Part shown: positions 54,191 to 64,000 of the stretch, piece by piece
Layout: each line of letters begins with the position of its first letter
Position numbering within the stretch: position 1 is the first letter of the stretch
DNA from: Alphaproteobacteria bacterium
GTDB taxonomy: Bacteria; Pseudomonadota; Alphaproteobacteria; Rhizobiales; Amorphaceae
NCBI GenBank assembly: GCA_030431335.1
Contig: JAUIJH010000010.1
Coordinates: forward strand, 1-64,000
Direction of reading: 5' to 3'
DNA: 64,000 nt
Notes under the pieces: model-generated
What the model saw: only the letters and a program-made list of their open reading frames with translations
Told to the model about the DNA's origin: nothing
Database searches by the model: none
Translations under genes and position numbers: made by a program

Positions 54191-55183
54191 ATGACGAAAC
54201 AGATGTCCCTGATGGGGGGAGCGGCAGGTCTGCTGCTTGGAATTTCGCTGGTCGCCGCGCCGACGGCCGCCTCTGCCGCGAACTGGATTCTCTACCATCA
54301 CCAGTCGGCTCCGCAGTTCACGACGAGCGTCGGTTCGCAGAAGATGACCGAGGAGATCGAGGAACTGACCGGCGGCGAGGTCAAAGTGCGCCTGCGCCAG
54401 GCCGGTACGCTGCAGATCGCCCCGAACAACATCTCCCAGGCCGTCGCCGAGAATGTCGTTCAGATGGGAGACGACCAGTACTTTGCCGGTAACGTCCCGA
54501 TCGGCAACGTTCTGAAACTCCCCTTCCTGATCCAGTCGTACGAAGAGTACGAGAAGGCGTCCGAGGTCGTTCTGCCCTATATCGAAGAGGGCTATGCGAA
54601 AATCGGCGTGACGGTGCTGGCCGACTACGTCTACCCGATGCAGTACATGTGGGGCCGGGCCGAGATCGATTCGCTCGAATCCATCAACGGCGCCAAGATC
54701 CGCGTTGCCTCGCCCGAGGCCGGTGAAGCCATCCGCCGCTTCGGCGGCAGCTCGGTCACCCTCGGCGCGTCCGAAGTGCCGTCCGCGCTCGACCGCGGCG
54801 TGGTCGACGGGATCATCACCGGAACGGTGGGCGCCGATCTCTGGCAGGACATGCTCAAGACCGGCTACCTGCTCGGCCTCAACTACAACAACGTCTACAT
54901 CATCGTGAACACGCAGGCGTTCGAGGCTCTCCCGCAGGAACAGCAGGACGCGATCCGCACCGCTGCCAAGAATGCCGCCGCCTGGGACACCGAGACCATG
55001 CGCACGGACGACGCGGCGCTGATCGGCAGCCTCAACGGCAAGATCGCCATCACCGAGCCCACCGCCGCCGACAAGGAGAAGGCCTTCTCCCTGCTGGCGT
55101 CCTTCTGGGACGAGTGGGCCCAGCAGAACGGCGACACGGCCGTCGAAGTCCTCGCCAAAGTTCGCGACGCCCTGGGGCGCTGA
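54191..55183 (+). CDS. dctP: TRAP substrate-binding protein (DctP), system 3
   Basis: 330 residues with a Sec signal (MTKQMSLMGGAAGLLLGISL, cleavage after ASA). Mature NWILYHHQSAPQFTTSVGSQKMTEEIEELTGGEVKVRL, GTLQIAPNNISQAVAENVVQMG, the family's ligand-binding Arg in GAKIRVASPEAGEAI, and PSALDRGVVDGIITG are DctP features. GGGAGGA lies just before the ATG. First gene of a five-gene run to the EamA gene, behind a promoter with two operator copies. Confidence 0.93.
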   Translation: MTKQMSLMGGAAGLLLGISLVAAPTAASAANWILYHHQSAPQFTTSVGSQKMTEEIEELTGGEVKVRLRQAGTLQIAPNNISQAVAENVVQMGDDQYFAGNVPIGNVLKLPFLIQSYEEYEKASEVVLPYIEEGYAKIGVTVLADYVYPMQYMWGRAEIDSLESINGAKIRVASPEAGEAIRRFGGSSVTLGASEVPSALDRGVVDGIITGTVGADLWQDMLKTGYLLGLNYNNVYIIVNTQAFEALPQEQQDAIRTAAKNAAAWDTETMRTDDAALIGSLNGKIAITEPTAADKEKAFSLLASFWDEWAQQNGDTAVEVLAKVRDALGR

Positions 55184-59738: not shown

Positions 59739-59750
59739 ATGATGCACAAT
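59739..59750. promoter_or_regulatory. Third operator-like copy, before the dehydratase operon
   Basis: ATGATGCACAAT resembles ATCGTGCACGAT. With flanks, GTCATGCATGATGCACAAT matches GTCATACATCGTGCACGAT at 54134-54152 in 15 of 19 positions. A possible -10 (GATACT, 59751-59756) follows directly, and the gene's ribosome site lies about 15 bases further. Suggests that one regulator controls TRAP-3 and this operon. Confidence 0.65.
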
Positions 59751-59787
59751 GATACTGCGATATTTCTCCTTCGAGGGACCGCCGCGA

Positions 59788-60711
59788 ATGGCCGCTGAGC
59801 CGTCGACCGCGCGGCTCACGGATGCGCTGCGCTCGGGGTTGATGTCGTTTCCGCTGAGCGATTTCGCTCCCGGCGGCGAGCTCGACATCGACGGCTTCCG
59901 CGCGCGCCTCGAGTGGCTCAGCCCCTATGGTGCCTCGGCCGTCTTCATCGCGGGCGGGGCGGGCGAGTTCTTCTCGCTCACCGCCGACGAATACGCCGCG
60001 CTGATCGCCGCCTCGGTCGCCGCGAAGCTGCCGGCGCCGGTGATCGCCACGGCCGGCTTCGGCACCAAGATGGCCATCGACTACGTCAGGCAGGCCGAGC
60101 GGCTCGGCGCCGACGGGATCCTGCTGCTGCCGCCCTATCTGACCGAATCGTCGCAGGCGGGGATCAAGGCGCACATCCGCGCGGTGTGCGAGGCGACCCG
60201 GCTCGGCGTCATCATCTACAACCGCGCCAATGGCCGGCTGCGCGTCGAAACGCTCGAAGAGCTGGTCGACACGTGCCCCAACCTGGTCGGCTTCAAGGAT
60301 GGCGTCGGCGACATCGAGGAAATGCTGCGCGTCACCGCCCGGCTGGGCGAGCGGCTCGTGTGCATCAACGGCATGCCCACGGCCGAGGTCTATGCCCAGG
60401 CCTATACCGGCATGGGGATCCCGTCTTATTCCTCGGCGATCTTCAACTTCATTCCCAAGAGCGCGATGGCCTTCCAGCGCGCGGTGGCCTCCGGCGACCG
60501 GCAGTGGATCGCCGGTTTCATCCGCGACTTCCTCGACCCCTATTGCCGCCTGCGGGCGCGTCAGCCGGGCTACGCGGTCAGCATCGTGAAGGCGGGGGCC
60601 GCGCTCGTGGGCCGCAGCGCCGGGCCGGTGCGCCCACCGCTGTCGGACCTGACGGCCGAGGAAATGACGATGCTTGAATCCCTCATCGCCCCGCTCGGGC
60701 CACAAGACTGA
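59788..60711 (+). CDS. kdgD: 5-dehydro-4-deoxyglucarate dehydratase-like (DHDPS superfamily)
   Basis: 307 residues, the usual length. LRSGLMSFPLSDFAPGGELDIDGFRARLEWLSPYGASAVFIAGGAGEFFSLTADEY closely follows the KdgD pattern. The Schiff-base Lys is in NLVGFKDGVGD and the catalytic Tyr in GVIIYNRANG. KdgD converts 5-dehydro-4-deoxyglucarate to 2-oxoglutarate semialdehyde in glucarate/galactarate breakdown. ATG at 59788 chosen: GAGGGA lies nine bases upstream; the ATG at 59749 falls in the promoter/operator region. First gene of a five-gene operon. The neighbours do not complete the known glucarate route, so the real substrate may differ. Confidence 0.85.
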   Translation: MAAEPSTARLTDALRSGLMSFPLSDFAPGGELDIDGFRARLEWLSPYGASAVFIAGGAGEFFSLTADEYAALIAASVAAKLPAPVIATAGFGTKMAIDYVRQAERLGADGILLLPPYLTESSQAGIKAHIRAVCEATRLGVIIYNRANGRLRVETLEELVDTCPNLVGFKDGVGDIEEMLRVTARLGERLVCINGMPTAEVYAQAYTGMGIPSYSSAIFNFIPKSAMAFQRAVASGDRQWIAGFIRDFLDPYCRLRARQPGYAVSIVKAGAALVGRSAGPVRPPLSDLTAEEMTMLESLIAPLGPQD

Positions 60712-60740: not shown

Positions 60741-61565
60741 ATGACCGATCCAAAGATCCTGACCTACTCGAGCAGTGCATCGGCTGGAGAGGAGTGCCGC
60801 GGGCAAGTGCTCGTGTCGGGCTCCTACGGGGGCGAGTACAACGCTTGGCACGCGGCCAAATGGGGCATCCGCGGCGTGGTGCTGAACGATGCCGGCGTGG
60901 GCAAGGACGATGCGGGCATCAACGGCTTGCCCTACCTCGACACCATCGAACTGCCGGCGGCGACGGCCGATGCGCAGACGTGCCACATCGCCGATGCGGA
61001 GCATATGCTGGCCCACGGCACGGTCAGCCACGTCAACCGCACCGCGGCGGCGCTCGGCTGCGCGAAAGGCCAGACGGTGCGCGAATGCGCCGAGGCCATG
61101 CTCGCCGCCCCCGTCATCACGGCGACGCCGCCGCCCATCAGCGGCGGCAAGCGCTACACGGTGCTGGAGCGGCCCGGCGAGCCGAAGGTCATCTGTCTCG
61201 ACGCCGCGCCGATGCTGGAGGCGGCCGACGCCGGCACGATCGCGGTCACGGGCTCGCACGCGGCGATGTTCCGCGGCAAGCCGGACGGCCTCATCGCGCC
61301 GGACCTCGTGGCCGTGTTCTTCAGCGACGCCGGGGTGGGCCTCGACGGGGCCGGCATCCGCCGCCTTGCCCATCTCGACGAACGCGGCATGATCGCCGGC
61401 ACCGCGGCCGCCGCGAGCGCGCCGATCGGCAACGCCCGGGCGATCTACGCGGACGGGATCCTGTCGCACTTCAACCGGGCTGCCGAGGCCGCAGGCGCGA
61501 AGGTCGGCATGAAGGTGCGGGACTTCATCGAGATCCTCTTGGAGGCAGCGCGCACCGGCCGCTAG
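60741..61565 (+). CDS. Uncharacterised protein with two internal repeats (DAGVG/SHxNR)
   Basis: 274 residues that I cannot place in a named family. It is an internal duplication: GS at residues 27-28 and 171-172, DAGVG at 50-54 and 196-200, AGI at 58-60 and 204-206, SH-x-NR at 96-100 and 242-246, each separated by 144-146 residues. The linker holds TATPPPISGGKRYTV. There is no signal peptide or membrane segment. Conserved Asp, Ser, His, Asn and Arg in both halves suggest a binding or catalytic site formed per repeat or across a pseudo-dimer. It lies 29 bases after the dehydratase and 19 bases before the FMN oxidase, so it shares their pathway. Confidence 0.8.
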   Translation: MTDPKILTYSSSASAGEECRGQVLVSGSYGGEYNAWHAAKWGIRGVVLNDAGVGKDDAGINGLPYLDTIELPAATADAQTCHIADAEHMLAHGTVSHVNRTAAALGCAKGQTVRECAEAMLAAPVITATPPPISGGKRYTVLERPGEPKVICLDAAPMLEAADAGTIAVTGSHAAMFRGKPDGLIAPDLVAVFFSDAGVGLDGAGIRRLAHLDERGMIAGTAAAASAPIGNARAIYADGILSHFNRAAEAAGAKVGMKVRDFIEILLEAARTGR

Positions 61566-61584: not shown

Positions 61585-62817
61585 ATGGCCATGACGCAAC
61601 TCGCCAAGGCGCTCAGCATCGGTGACCTCAGGCAGCTCGCGCGGCGCCGGCTGCCGCGCATCCTGTTCGAGCTGATCGAATCGGGTGTCGAGGACGAGCA
61701 TGGCCTCGACCGCAACCTGGCGGCGTTCCGGCGCTACTGCCTGTTGCCGCGCTATCTCACCGAGATCGAGACGCGGGACCAGACCACCGAGCTGTTCGGC
61801 CGCCGCTACCAGAGCCCGTTCGGGATCGGCCCCACGGGGTTCGCGGCACTGCTGCGCCATGGCGCGGAGCAGCAACTCGCGGGTGCGGCCGTGGCGGCGG
61901 ACATCCCCTGCATCGTGTCGGGAGCGGCGGCTGCGCCGATCGAGGAGCTCGCGGCGATCGCGCCCGCGAACCTCTGGTACCACCTTTATCCGGCGAAGGA
62001 CGCGGCGATCACCGCGGCGATCCTCGACCGCGTCGAGGCGGCGGGGGTTTCGACGCTGGTTCTCACCGTCGACAACCCGGTCTATCCCAAGCGCGAGCGC
62101 GATACCCGCAACGGGTTCTCGCTGCCGCTGCGGCTCAGCCTGGCGACGATGCTGGAGGCGGCGACCCACGTCGGCTGGCTCACCGAATATTTGCGGCAAG
62201 GCGGCATGCCGCGCATGGACACGTGGGCGCCCTTTGCGCCGGCCGGGGCCGACGCGGGCGAGATCGCCGCGTTCTTCCGCTCGCAGAGCCCGTCGATCCA
62301 GACTTGGCGCAGTGTCGAGGCCCTCCGGCGGCGTTGGCCGGGGCGGTTCGTCCTCAAGGGCCTGCAGCATCCGGACGACGCGAACCGGGCCGTGGAGGCG
62401 GGCATCGACGGCATCATCGTTTCCAACCACGGCGCCAAATCGTTCGACCCGCTGCCGAGCCCGCTCGACACGCTGCCGGCGGTTAAGGCGGCCGTCGGCG
62501 GGCGGGTACCGGTGATGCTCGACAGCGGCATCCGCCGCGGCGCCGATATCCTGATTGCCCGCAGCCTCGGGGCGGATTTCTGTTTCGTCGGCCGGGCGAC
62601 GCTCTACGGCGTGGTCGCGGGAGCGCGGGCGGGCGCCGACCGGGCCATCGAGATCCTGCGCGAGGAGGTCGACAAGGGCCTCGCCCTCATCGGCTGCCCC
62701 AGCGTCAACGACCTGCACGAAGGCTACCTGATGCGCCAGGACACGCCGCTGCCGCGCGCCCCGGCGGCCAGCCTCGCCGACAGCCGCCGCCAGAACGAAC
62801 GAGGAGGGATGACATGA
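61585..62817 (+). CDS. FMN-dependent alpha-hydroxy-acid oxidase-like protein with altered substrate residues
   Basis: 410 residues of the lactate dehydrogenase (LldD)/glycolate oxidase family. The FMN-site Lys258 (VLKGL), the catalytic His282 (VSNHGAKSFD), Asp163 and Arg170 (TVDNPVYPKRERD) and Tyr135 are present. Two residues that normally hold the substrate carboxylate are changed: Lys285 replaces the Arg of SNHGxR, and Leu30 stands where Tyr is usual (FELIESG against FDYIDGG). Either the substrate differs or the carboxylate is bound another way. The stop overlaps the GlcG-like start (ATGA). Met at codon 3 is an alternative start. Confidence 0.88.
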   Translation: MAMTQLAKALSIGDLRQLARRRLPRILFELIESGVEDEHGLDRNLAAFRRYCLLPRYLTEIETRDQTTELFGRRYQSPFGIGPTGFAALLRHGAEQQLAGAAVAADIPCIVSGAAAAPIEELAAIAPANLWYHLYPAKDAAITAAILDRVEAAGVSTLVLTVDNPVYPKRERDTRNGFSLPLRLSLATMLEAATHVGWLTEYLRQGGMPRMDTWAPFAPAGADAGEIAAFFRSQSPSIQTWRSVEALRRRWPGRFVLKGLQHPDDANRAVEAGIDGIIVSNHGAKSFDPLPSPLDTLPAVKAAVGGRVPVMLDSGIRRGADILIARSLGADFCFVGRATLYGVVAGARAGADRAIEILREEVDKGLALIGCPSVNDLHEGYLMRQDTPLPRAPAASLADSRRQNERGGMT

Positions 62818-63269
62818 GCGATATCGCGAGCAACGCGGGAGGGAGCACGCTGCCGCTGCGCCCGGTGCTGACGCTGGAGGTGGCACGGCGGATGGTCTCG
62901 GCGGCCGAGGCGAAGGCGCGCCAGGACGGGCTCGCGGTCTCCATCGCCGTGGTCGATCAGGGCGGGCACCTCGTTGAATTCTCGCGCATGGACGGCCTCC
63001 ACATCGGCACCATCGACGTGGCGACCGCCAAGGCGCGTGCCGCCGCGCTCTTCAAGAAGCCGACGACGGTATTCGCGGAGGCGCTCGAAGCGGGCGCCAC
63101 GGGGCTGATGGCGCTGCCGGGCATGCTGCCGATGCCGGGCGGGGTGCCGGTGTTCTGCGACGGGTTGCTGGTCGGTGCGGTCGGCATCAGCGGGGCGGCG
63201 CCGCAACAGGACGCCGAGATGGCCGGCATCGCCGCCGCCGTCGTGCCAACCAAGGGAGAGACGAGATGA
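62814..63269 (+). CDS. GlcG/HbpS-family protein
   Basis: 151 residues. VLTLEVARRMVSAAEAKARQDGLAVSIAVVDQGGHLVEFSRMDG is the typical GlcG start, followed by ATAKARAAALFKKPT and GGVPVFCDGLLVGAVGISGAAPQQDAEMAGIA. The family is linked to glycolate, propanediol and haem-related loci; its biochemical role is poorly known. Coupled by ATGA overlaps on both sides to the FMN oxidase and the dehydrogenase, as GlcG genes often are with hydroxy-acid oxidases. Confidence 0.85.
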   Translation: MSDIASNAGGSTLPLRPVLTLEVARRMVSAAEAKARQDGLAVSIAVVDQGGHLVEFSRMDGLHIGTIDVATAKARAAALFKKPTTVFAEALEAGATGLMALPGMLPMPGGVPVFCDGLLVGAVGISGAAPQQDAEMAGIAAAVVPTKGETR

Positions 63270-64000
63270 AGGTTTCCATCATCGCGCCAGGCAACATGGG
63301 CGCCGCGATCGGTGCTCGGCTCGTCGCCAACGGGGCCGAGGTGCGCACGATCCTGGAAGGGCGCAGCACTGCGAGCGTGGAGCGGGCGCAAGCGGCCGGC
63401 ATGGTCGCGGTGACGGGCACCGCGATCGCCGAGGTCGACTTCCTGCTGTCGGTGGTGCCGCCGCAGGAAGTGCTGGCGACGGCGAAATCTCTGGCCCCCG
63501 CCCTCGAGGCGGCCACCGCGAAGCCGCTCTACATCGATTGCAACGCCATCAACCCCGAGACCACCCGCGCCGTCGGCGAGGTGGTCGCGGCGACCGGCGC
63601 GCATTACCTGGACGGCAGCATCATCGGCTTGCCGCCGCGCGAGGGTTATGGCGGGCCGGCCCTGTTCGTTTCCGGGCCGGAGGCGGCACGTGCCGAAGCG
63701 CTGTCCGCCTACGGCATGGACATCCGCGTGATGGACGGCGCGATAGGCGCGGCCTCGGCGATCAAGATGGCCTACGGCGGCATCACCAAGGGACTGATCG
63801 CGATCGGCGCGGCGATGATCCTCGGCGCCTCGCGCGCGGATATCGCGGACGACCTCAAGGCCGAACTCGCCAAGAGCCAGGCGCGTCTCCTGGAAGGTTT
63901 TTCGCGCAGCATCCCGGATATGTTCGGAAAAGCCTATCGCTGGGTGGCGGAAATGGAGGAGATCGCCGACTTCCTGCCAGCGGGCAGCGCGCAGGCGGCG
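63266..64000 (+). CDS. NAD(P)-dependent hydroxyacid dehydrogenase-like protein (DUF1932 type), 3' end outside the window
   Basis: About 245 codons are visible and the frame is open at the window edge. It begins MKVSIIAPGNMGAAIGARLVANGAEV, a Rossmann cofactor loop like 6-phosphogluconate/3-hydroxyisobutyrate dehydrogenases (G-x-M-G). LLSVVPPQEVL, YIDCNAINPETTRAVGEVV and the catalytic-Lys helix ASAIKMAYGGITKGLIAIGAA follow; the last block and LLEGFSRSIPDMFGKAYRW point to the DUF1932 C-terminal domain. It probably oxidises or reduces a 3-hydroxy acid in the same pathway. The ATG overlaps the GlcG stop. Confidence 0.85.
   Translation, partial: MKVSIIAPGNMGAAIGARLVANGAEVRTILEGRSTASVERAQAAGMVAVTGTAIAEVDFLLSVVPPQEVLATAKSLAPALEAATAKPLYIDCNAINPETTRAVGEVVAATGAHYLDGSIIGLPPREGYGGPALFVSGPEAARAEALSAYGMDIRVMDGAIGAASAIKMAYGGITKGLIAIGAAMILGASRADIADDLKAELAKSQARLLEGFSRSIPDMFGKAYRWVAEMEEIADFLPAGSAQAA

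Follow-up and report, generated by a model that had tools for sequence, protein, structure and literature searches.

Small proteins of the family designated DUF1805 (PF08827, COG3377), among them YunC and TA1206 of T. acidophilum, consist of a single domain of about 100 residues, and the structure of TA1206, PDB entry 1QW2, is placed in DUF1805/COG3377 in PMC9425974. In those parts of the literature that were available to us, no function was found for DUF1805, and searches on TA1206/1QW2, COG3377/arCOG04424 and DUF1932 yielded none either. A second described system of relevance is the 3-oxo-isoapionate pathway, which involves OiaK and OiaX; genes resembling these two lie just downstream of haloarchaeal homologues of the protein considered here. 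We know of no counterpart of this protein in the pathway, and nothing on it was found in the literature searched for the apionate pathway.

The protein is encoded in a window of 64,000 nucleotides, the whole stretch of alphaproteobacterial DNA analysed, and belongs to a family that is widespread in bacteria and archaea and is unnamed. Its domain architecture, a likely relative by fold and several co-occurring partner enzymes can now be named, which makes its function, and that of DUF1805/COG3377, directly testable. The most interesting outcome is a module that includes E1 and ThDP enzymes dedicated to it and that may be an undescribed route for the breakdown of oxo-acids. Features are collected in the table.

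Features of the two-repeat protein gene and its neighbours in the window (counts over 49 rows refer to the alignment of two-repeat homologues; clade, the window protein with those of L009, L010 and L011)
Feature	Position	Strand	Evidence and remarks
TRAP transporter binding protein DctP, upstream	54191..55183	+	PF03480, 109.8 bits
KdgD-like dehydratase (DHDPS family), directly upstream	59749..60711	+	TIGR03249, 374.8 bits against a cut-off of 373.95; upstream in 4/4 clade members
Two-repeat protein gene	60741..61565	+	ATG to TAG, 274 aa plus stop; homologues found
Repeat 1, residues 4-125	60750..61115	+	BLASTP and profile comparison of halves
GSYGG (most relatives: GSHGG), repeat 1, end of strand 23-29	60819..60833	+	S28 49/49, H29 41/49 rows
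DAGVG...AGI, repeat 1, after strand 45-49	60888..60920	+	D50 44/49, G54 49/49, G59 49/49 rows; residues 53-55 pLDDT <50
HIAD, repeat 1 (family consensus RIGD)	60984..60995	+	residue 82: R 41/49, H 4/49 rows
SHVNR, repeat 1	61026..61040	+	N99 48/49 rows
Linker Arg138 of ExR motif	61152..61154	+	R138 45/49, E at 136 40/49 rows
Repeat 2, residues 149-270	61185..61550	+	BLASTP and profile comparison; modelled alone, pLDDT 86, pTM 0.82
GSHAA, repeat 2, end of strand 167-173	61251..61265	+	S172 47/49, H173 48/49 rows
DAGVG...AGI, repeat 2, after strand 191-195	61326..61358	+	D196 49/49, G198 48/49, G205 47/49 rows; residues 199-201 pLDDT <50
PIGN, repeat 2 (family consensus RIGD)	61422..61433	+	residue 228: R 39/49, P 5/49 rows
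SHFNR, repeat 2	61464..61478	+	N245 48/49 rows
FMN-dependent dehydrogenase/oxidase family protein, directly downstream	61585..62817	+	PF01070, 388.6 bits; 3/4 clade members
HbpS/GlcG-like protein	62814..63269	+	PF03928, 117.5 bits; 88.3 bits against the PRK09732 cut-off of 246; 1/4 clade members
DUF1932 dehydrogenase, cut by window end	63266..64000	+	Pfam; 2/4 clade members

The two units of the 274-residue protein are homologous and reflect a duplication. BLASTP of one half against the other gave 44% identity over 78 residues (E 2e-13), and the local alignment score of 145 was reached in none of 2000 shuffles, where the maximum was 56. Comparison of a profile of 49 N-terminal halves with one of the 49 C-terminal halves, those of the window protein included, gave a probability of 100% (E 9e-46, 121 columns), and in many homologous loci the first half of the window protein matched second halves and the reverse. 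BLASTP, shuffling and profile comparison thus agree with the original prediction of one reading frame holding two homologous copies with their motifs in the same order. The predicted unit of roughly 145 residues describes the period of 144-146, but the conserved unit itself spans about 122 residues, and a linker joins the two copies. Similarly, the identical spacing claimed for all motifs applies to DAGVG, AGI and SHxNR, which start at residues 50/196, 58/204 and 96/242 (period 146), but not to GS, which starts at 27/171 and has a period of 144. The protein is probably soluble and cytoplasmic, as neither a signal nor a membrane segment is apparent by eye.

Conservation was counted in an alignment of 49 two-repeat homologues, from which the single-repeat sequences of loci L054 and L055 were excluded and in which L011 was trimmed to its C-terminal 272 residues; a 43-row alignment, A1, is the same set minus L047, L057, L070, L071, L076 and L080. 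Mean entropy over the 49 rows was 1.70 bits for residues 5-123 and 1.81 bits for residues 149-270, so that the halves are equally conserved, as would suit a fused dimer that has kept both halves intact. Two features set the window's own clade apart: His and Pro stand in place of Arg in the two RIGD motifs, and the Glu of the ExR motif (position 136) is absent. The loss of both Arg residues suggests that the substrate of this clade is probably different.

Single-repeat relatives also exist. Lone single-repeat genes were found in two of the six genomes of the phylum that matched the profile of the window's clade, at L096 1453-1857 (minus strand, 134 aa) and L095 1456-1848 (minus strand, 130 aa), and L054 holds another. 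At L055 5643-6478 (minus strand), two adjacent single-repeat genes overlap by a few bases, so that the fused protein is here encoded in two pieces. Given these single genes and the side-by-side pair, the two-repeat form looks like a fused dimer, and the pseudo-twofold build that had been proposed from the window sequence is backed both by the single-repeat relatives and by the equal conservation of the halves. In other pseudo-symmetric racemases, the two halves contribute one base each, and by analogy the protein could racemise or epimerise hydroxy-acids by a two-base mechanism, for which the same conserved polar set is present in both halves. However, no Cys or Lys occurs in the columns conserved in at least 75% of the 49 rows, and the single-repeat forms would need a site at a dimer interface; we regard a racemase as quite improbable.

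AlphaFold2 models of the protein are globular alpha/beta structures. For the full protein, with four input sequences, the best of five models had a pLDDT of 82 and a pTM of 0.65, and two of the five were poor (46 and 38); the model of repeat 2 alone was built from eight half-sequences. The least certain parts are the DAGVG loops. In the full model, each conserved motif of repeat 1 sits where a strand ends or no more than a few residues beyond it (GSxGG at strand 23-29, NDAG at 45-49, xIxD at 73-76 and the conserved Asn at 94-98), and the motifs of repeat 2 are placed in the same way. If the model is right, these strand ends would correspond to the usual site of an alpha/beta active site. Fold comparison (VIA) placed 1QW2 first with both models, at Z 7.5 for the full model (76 aligned, 2.5 Å; next Z 5.5) and Z 7.0 for repeat 2 (74 aligned, 2.7 Å; next Z 5.2), values that fall below 8, where similarity may reflect a common arrangement alone, and so are not proof of kinship. 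Foldseek gave E 0.4 with the full model and 0.48 with repeat 2.

Searches by sequence point marginally to the same family. DUF1805 was the sole Pfam match of the window protein at E ≤ 1, with 32.1 bits in two stretches against a gathering cut-off of 29.5, and the best stretch covers profile positions 28-62 of 64, that is, not most of the profile. The match is marginal, since a six-frame scan with the same model at E ≤ 0.001 found nothing in the window's genome, the gene itself included, or in the 100 genomes searched. Among 43 members scanned, the window protein included, 37 matched DUF1805 and 33 matched the Y-family polymerase model PF00817 (IMS) at E ≤ 1; because members match both, the two models are taken to hold the same local helix motif. 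A motif of the form GxxSxxNxxAxxxGxxxG, at about residues 93-117 and 239-263, lies behind both sets of Pfam matches, and the Y-family polymerases have in common with the family the local pattern G-V-I-S--N--A---G---G-M. Kinship with these polymerases was rejected, as the matches cover some 30-70 residues against chains of 221-439, no polymerase domain is present and the setting is catabolic.

The family differs from DUF1805 in having two domains per protein and an additional N-terminal beta-alpha part with GSHGG, sequence likeness being restricted to the C-terminal helix motif. At the presumed corresponding strand, the GYIMC[GS] of four YunC-like proteins is replaced by NDAGxG. Profile comparison with these four proteins gave 11-13% over 26-29 columns, where the best of 20 column-shuffled controls gave 8%. 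1QW2 itself matches a YunC-like sequence at E 2.2e-6, in line with its place in DUF1805/COG3377. A distant relation to DUF1805 is regarded as likely, but the protein is not filed as a member.

No characterised member of the family was found in NCBIfam, Pfam, PHROGs, PADLOC or, by sequence, the PDB. Neither NCBIfam nor PADLOC has a family that matches the protein at E ≤ 1, and a single PHROGs match at E 0.46 was taken as chance. HbpS/GlcG (PF03928), DHDPS, FMN_dh and NAD_binding_2 were likewise without a Pfam match in the protein at E ≤ 1. The PDB gave nothing at E ≤ 10 with the single protein as query; with whole-protein and single-repeat profiles the best values were E 0.021, for a polymerase through the local motif, and 0.073, and 1QW2 was not among the sequence matches of the single-repeat profile. 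In a separate search, two matches at E 6.6e-4 and 9.4e-4 were put down to chance. The initial view that no known family could be recognised thus stands for characterised families and has to be qualified for DUF1805, matched marginally and itself without a function that we could find.

Counting the window's genome, the family was detected in 8 of 41 relatives and in 31 of the 289 genomes searched from its class, and the profile of the window's clade matches 6 of 398 genomes of the phylum. Thirteen of 72,556 plasmid records match, including those of haloarchaea and Rhodococcus; twelve of the 13 carry the annotation 'hypothetical protein' and one is unannotated. The genome-contig set added three loci, two of them from Burkholderiales. 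None of 50,697 phage records matches the family, and among the 83 matches of one motif pattern in viral contigs there was no confirmed relative.

The genomic context was surveyed in 51 loci, the window included, by tblastn within the fetched stretches (E ≤ 1e-10; L069-L071 are near copies). The strongest partners across the family are ThDP enzymes: E1-alpha and E1-beta are each present in 24 of the 51 loci, although identity in L054 is no higher than 44-46%. A ThDP gene was detected in 17 loci (in L010 at only 32% identity, in the other 16 at 59% or more). SDR genes, a broad family, occur in 15 loci, KdgD in four and FMN_dh in three. The neighbours named in the original prediction are all present in the window by NCBIfam and Pfam, namely the DHDPS-family protein (of the KdgD subfamily), FMN_dh, the HbpS/GlcG-like protein and DUF1932, and they support its reading of a catabolic operon. 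GlcG and DUF1932, which were put forward there for a check on whether they always accompany the family, are not regular partners: GlcG is found in one of the 51 loci, the window, and DUF1932 in two, the window and L010. Neighbouring genes were called with a simple in-house script, and 53 of 73 adjacent same-strand reading frames were scanned, the 20 omitted being mostly frames antisense to E1 genes; the largest class among the 53 was ThDP enzymes, with eight.

Twelve genomes were chosen for holding both E1-type loci and the family gene; in each of them the best E1-alpha match is the copy near the family gene, no more than about 7 kb away. This near E1-alpha stands at 57-68% (100% in the query's own genome) and other copies at 47% or less, and a threshold of E ≤ 1e-85 was set post hoc in the gap seen across the 12 genomes. 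At this threshold, the distinct E1-alpha occurs in 24 of the 289 genomes of the class, all of them among the 31 family-positive genomes and spanning 16 taxonomic families. A distinct acetolactate-synthase-like ThDP enzyme (E ≤ 1e-130) occurs in 26, namely the same 24 plus G093 and G127, whose completeness is 87% and 90%. The hypergeometric P values of 4e-29 for E1-alpha and 1e-26 for the ThDP enzyme presuppose independent genomes, which these, being related, are not. Scored were the best 8, 7 and 4 first-look candidates per genome in the family, E1-alpha and ThDP searches, respectively, so that misses are possible. The E1-alpha gene lies less than 10 kb from the family gene in 19 of the 24 genomes and away from it in five, and the ThDP gene is within the same distance in 19 of 24. 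In G120 and G235 neither is within 10 kb, and physical linkage alone therefore lacks the power to explain the co-occurrence. No E2 or E3 is apparent beside the E1 genes of this cassette on reading the gene lists, that of L069 included, and the cassette E1 may be an 'orphan' pair. A literature search on E1/TRAP clusters returned nothing useful.

The association of many relatives with ThDP enzymes suggests that the protein acts at an undescribed step by which small oxo- or hydroxy-acids are broken down. The same association is what would be expected if the protein were not a catalyst but served the ThDP enzymes as an accessory or regulatory subunit that binds a substrate or stabilises a complex: two ThDP-dependent enzymes co-occur in the same 24 genomes, and in L059, L068 and L083 the in-house gene calls place a ThDP gene downstream with a 4-nt overlap. 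Members of the window's clade, haloarchaeal members and others have no such pair nearby, yet retain the majority of the strongly conserved polar residues, and a subunit role seems unlikely. The E1/ThDP pair is missing from 7 of the 31 family-positive genomes and other family members have contexts that are beta-oxidation-like or aromatic, so that one reaction may not fit all.

The haloarchaeal homologues, which sit just upstream of RuBisCO-like and four-carbon-acid-sugar-kinase genes, provide a further setting. The RuBisCO-like protein and the kinase of L041 resemble OiaX and OiaK, but the scores of the two proteins, 515.6 and 441.4, are below the equivalog cut-offs of 700, which suggests that the substrate may be new; their counterparts in L043 are 78-79% alike to them. 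These plasmid operons (L041 7004-10533 and L043 6953-10507) comprise, as an observation on gene content, a TRAP transporter, an aldolase, an SDR, the two-repeat protein, the RuBisCO-like protein and the kinase.

Another setting is that of the window itself, whose protein forms a clade with those of L009, L010 and L011, 66-69% identical to it (support 100/100, the bootstrap being not fully settled). The constant partners in this clade are the KdgD-like dehydratase and a similar GntR-type regulator (4/4, 51-59% identity, named from sequence); the downstream genes are found in fewer of the four members. The FMN-dependent protein scores under the cut-offs of all seven NCBIfam models listed, and the full length of the DUF1932 dehydrogenase, 280 aa, is seen in L115, with a GntR-type regulator, again named from sequence, after it. 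The KdgD-like dehydratase clears the equivalog cut-off of NCBIfam by a mere 0.9 bit, and the corresponding protein of L010, at 366.7, does not reach it, so that the real substrate may differ from 5-dehydro-4-deoxyglucarate. The window's genome also encodes a second, canonical member of the family (G000:C141:28509-29270; L048 5989-6807, minus strand), which adjoins E1-alpha and E1-beta and has SDR and ThDP genes within 6 kb. With this canonical paralogue in the same genome, the window gene seems to be a further copy that a second pathway has taken up.

The position of the dehydratase gene, which in all four clade members overlaps the family gene by 4 nt or ends 14-29 nt before it, would also suit a hydro-lyase or hydrolase, such as a lactonase or a dehydratase acting on a sugar-acid-like substrate, that yields a 3-deoxy-2-oxo acid for the KdgD-like enzyme, with relatives acting on other acids. 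A GMC oxidoreductase gene directly upstream of the family gene in L075 and L076, a GMC match in the window, 3.2 kb ahead of the gene, and the lack of an enolase-type dehydratase among the eight window genes scanned agree with such a role. It does not readily explain the co-occurrence with E1 and the acetolactate-synthase-like enzyme, however, and no known hydrolase or dehydratase family of NCBIfam or Pfam was matched, which leaves this reading rather doubtful.

In each of these settings, one of the neighbouring enzymes likely consumes a 2-oxo, 3-oxo or 3-deoxy-2-oxo acid, and a cofactor-free isomerase or an enolase-like proton-transfer enzyme would serve all of them. We tentatively propose, as one possibility, that the protein is a soluble, probably cofactor-free isomerase of hydroxy/oxo-acids, built from two tandem DUF1805-like alpha/beta domains and having an active site of pseudo-twofold symmetry. 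Its active sites would be formed by the motifs Ser-His/Tyr, Asp, Arg/His-Ile-Gly-Asp and Asn, and the reaction would be a proton-transfer isomerisation or enolisation, for example from a 2-hydroxy-3-oxo to a 2-oxo-3-hydroxy acid. Such a step would place the oxo group where the next enzyme requires it. In the common cassette this would be E1 or the ThDP enzyme, in haloarchaea the OiaK/OiaX-like kinase and decarboxylase, and in the window the KdgD-like dehydratase. At the level of the pathway, it is plausible, if still far from secure, that E1-alpha/beta without E2/E3, the acetolactate-synthase-like ThDP enzyme and the family together make up an undescribed, TRAP-fed catabolic module in which the duplicated DUF1805-like protein catalyses an oxo-acid step, the window representing a paralogue recruited to a KdgD-like pathway.

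Several minor observations concern the surroundings of individual genes. Long open frames of 708 and 1102 aa hinted at gene fusions that were not borne out: upstream in-frame extensions of more than 80 residues had BLAST matches (E ≤ 1e-5) solely to in-house gene calls, mostly the same reading frame, and in L053 the matches were to frames antisense to E1 genes. By eye, the single-repeat gene of L096 adjoins a CoA-transferase-like reading frame and that of L095 an SDR-like one, and the pair in L055 adjoins NAD_binding_2 and SDR genes. A single stretch of L069 (7218-12800) contains E1-alpha, E1-beta and TRAP genes together with the first part of a ThDP gene.
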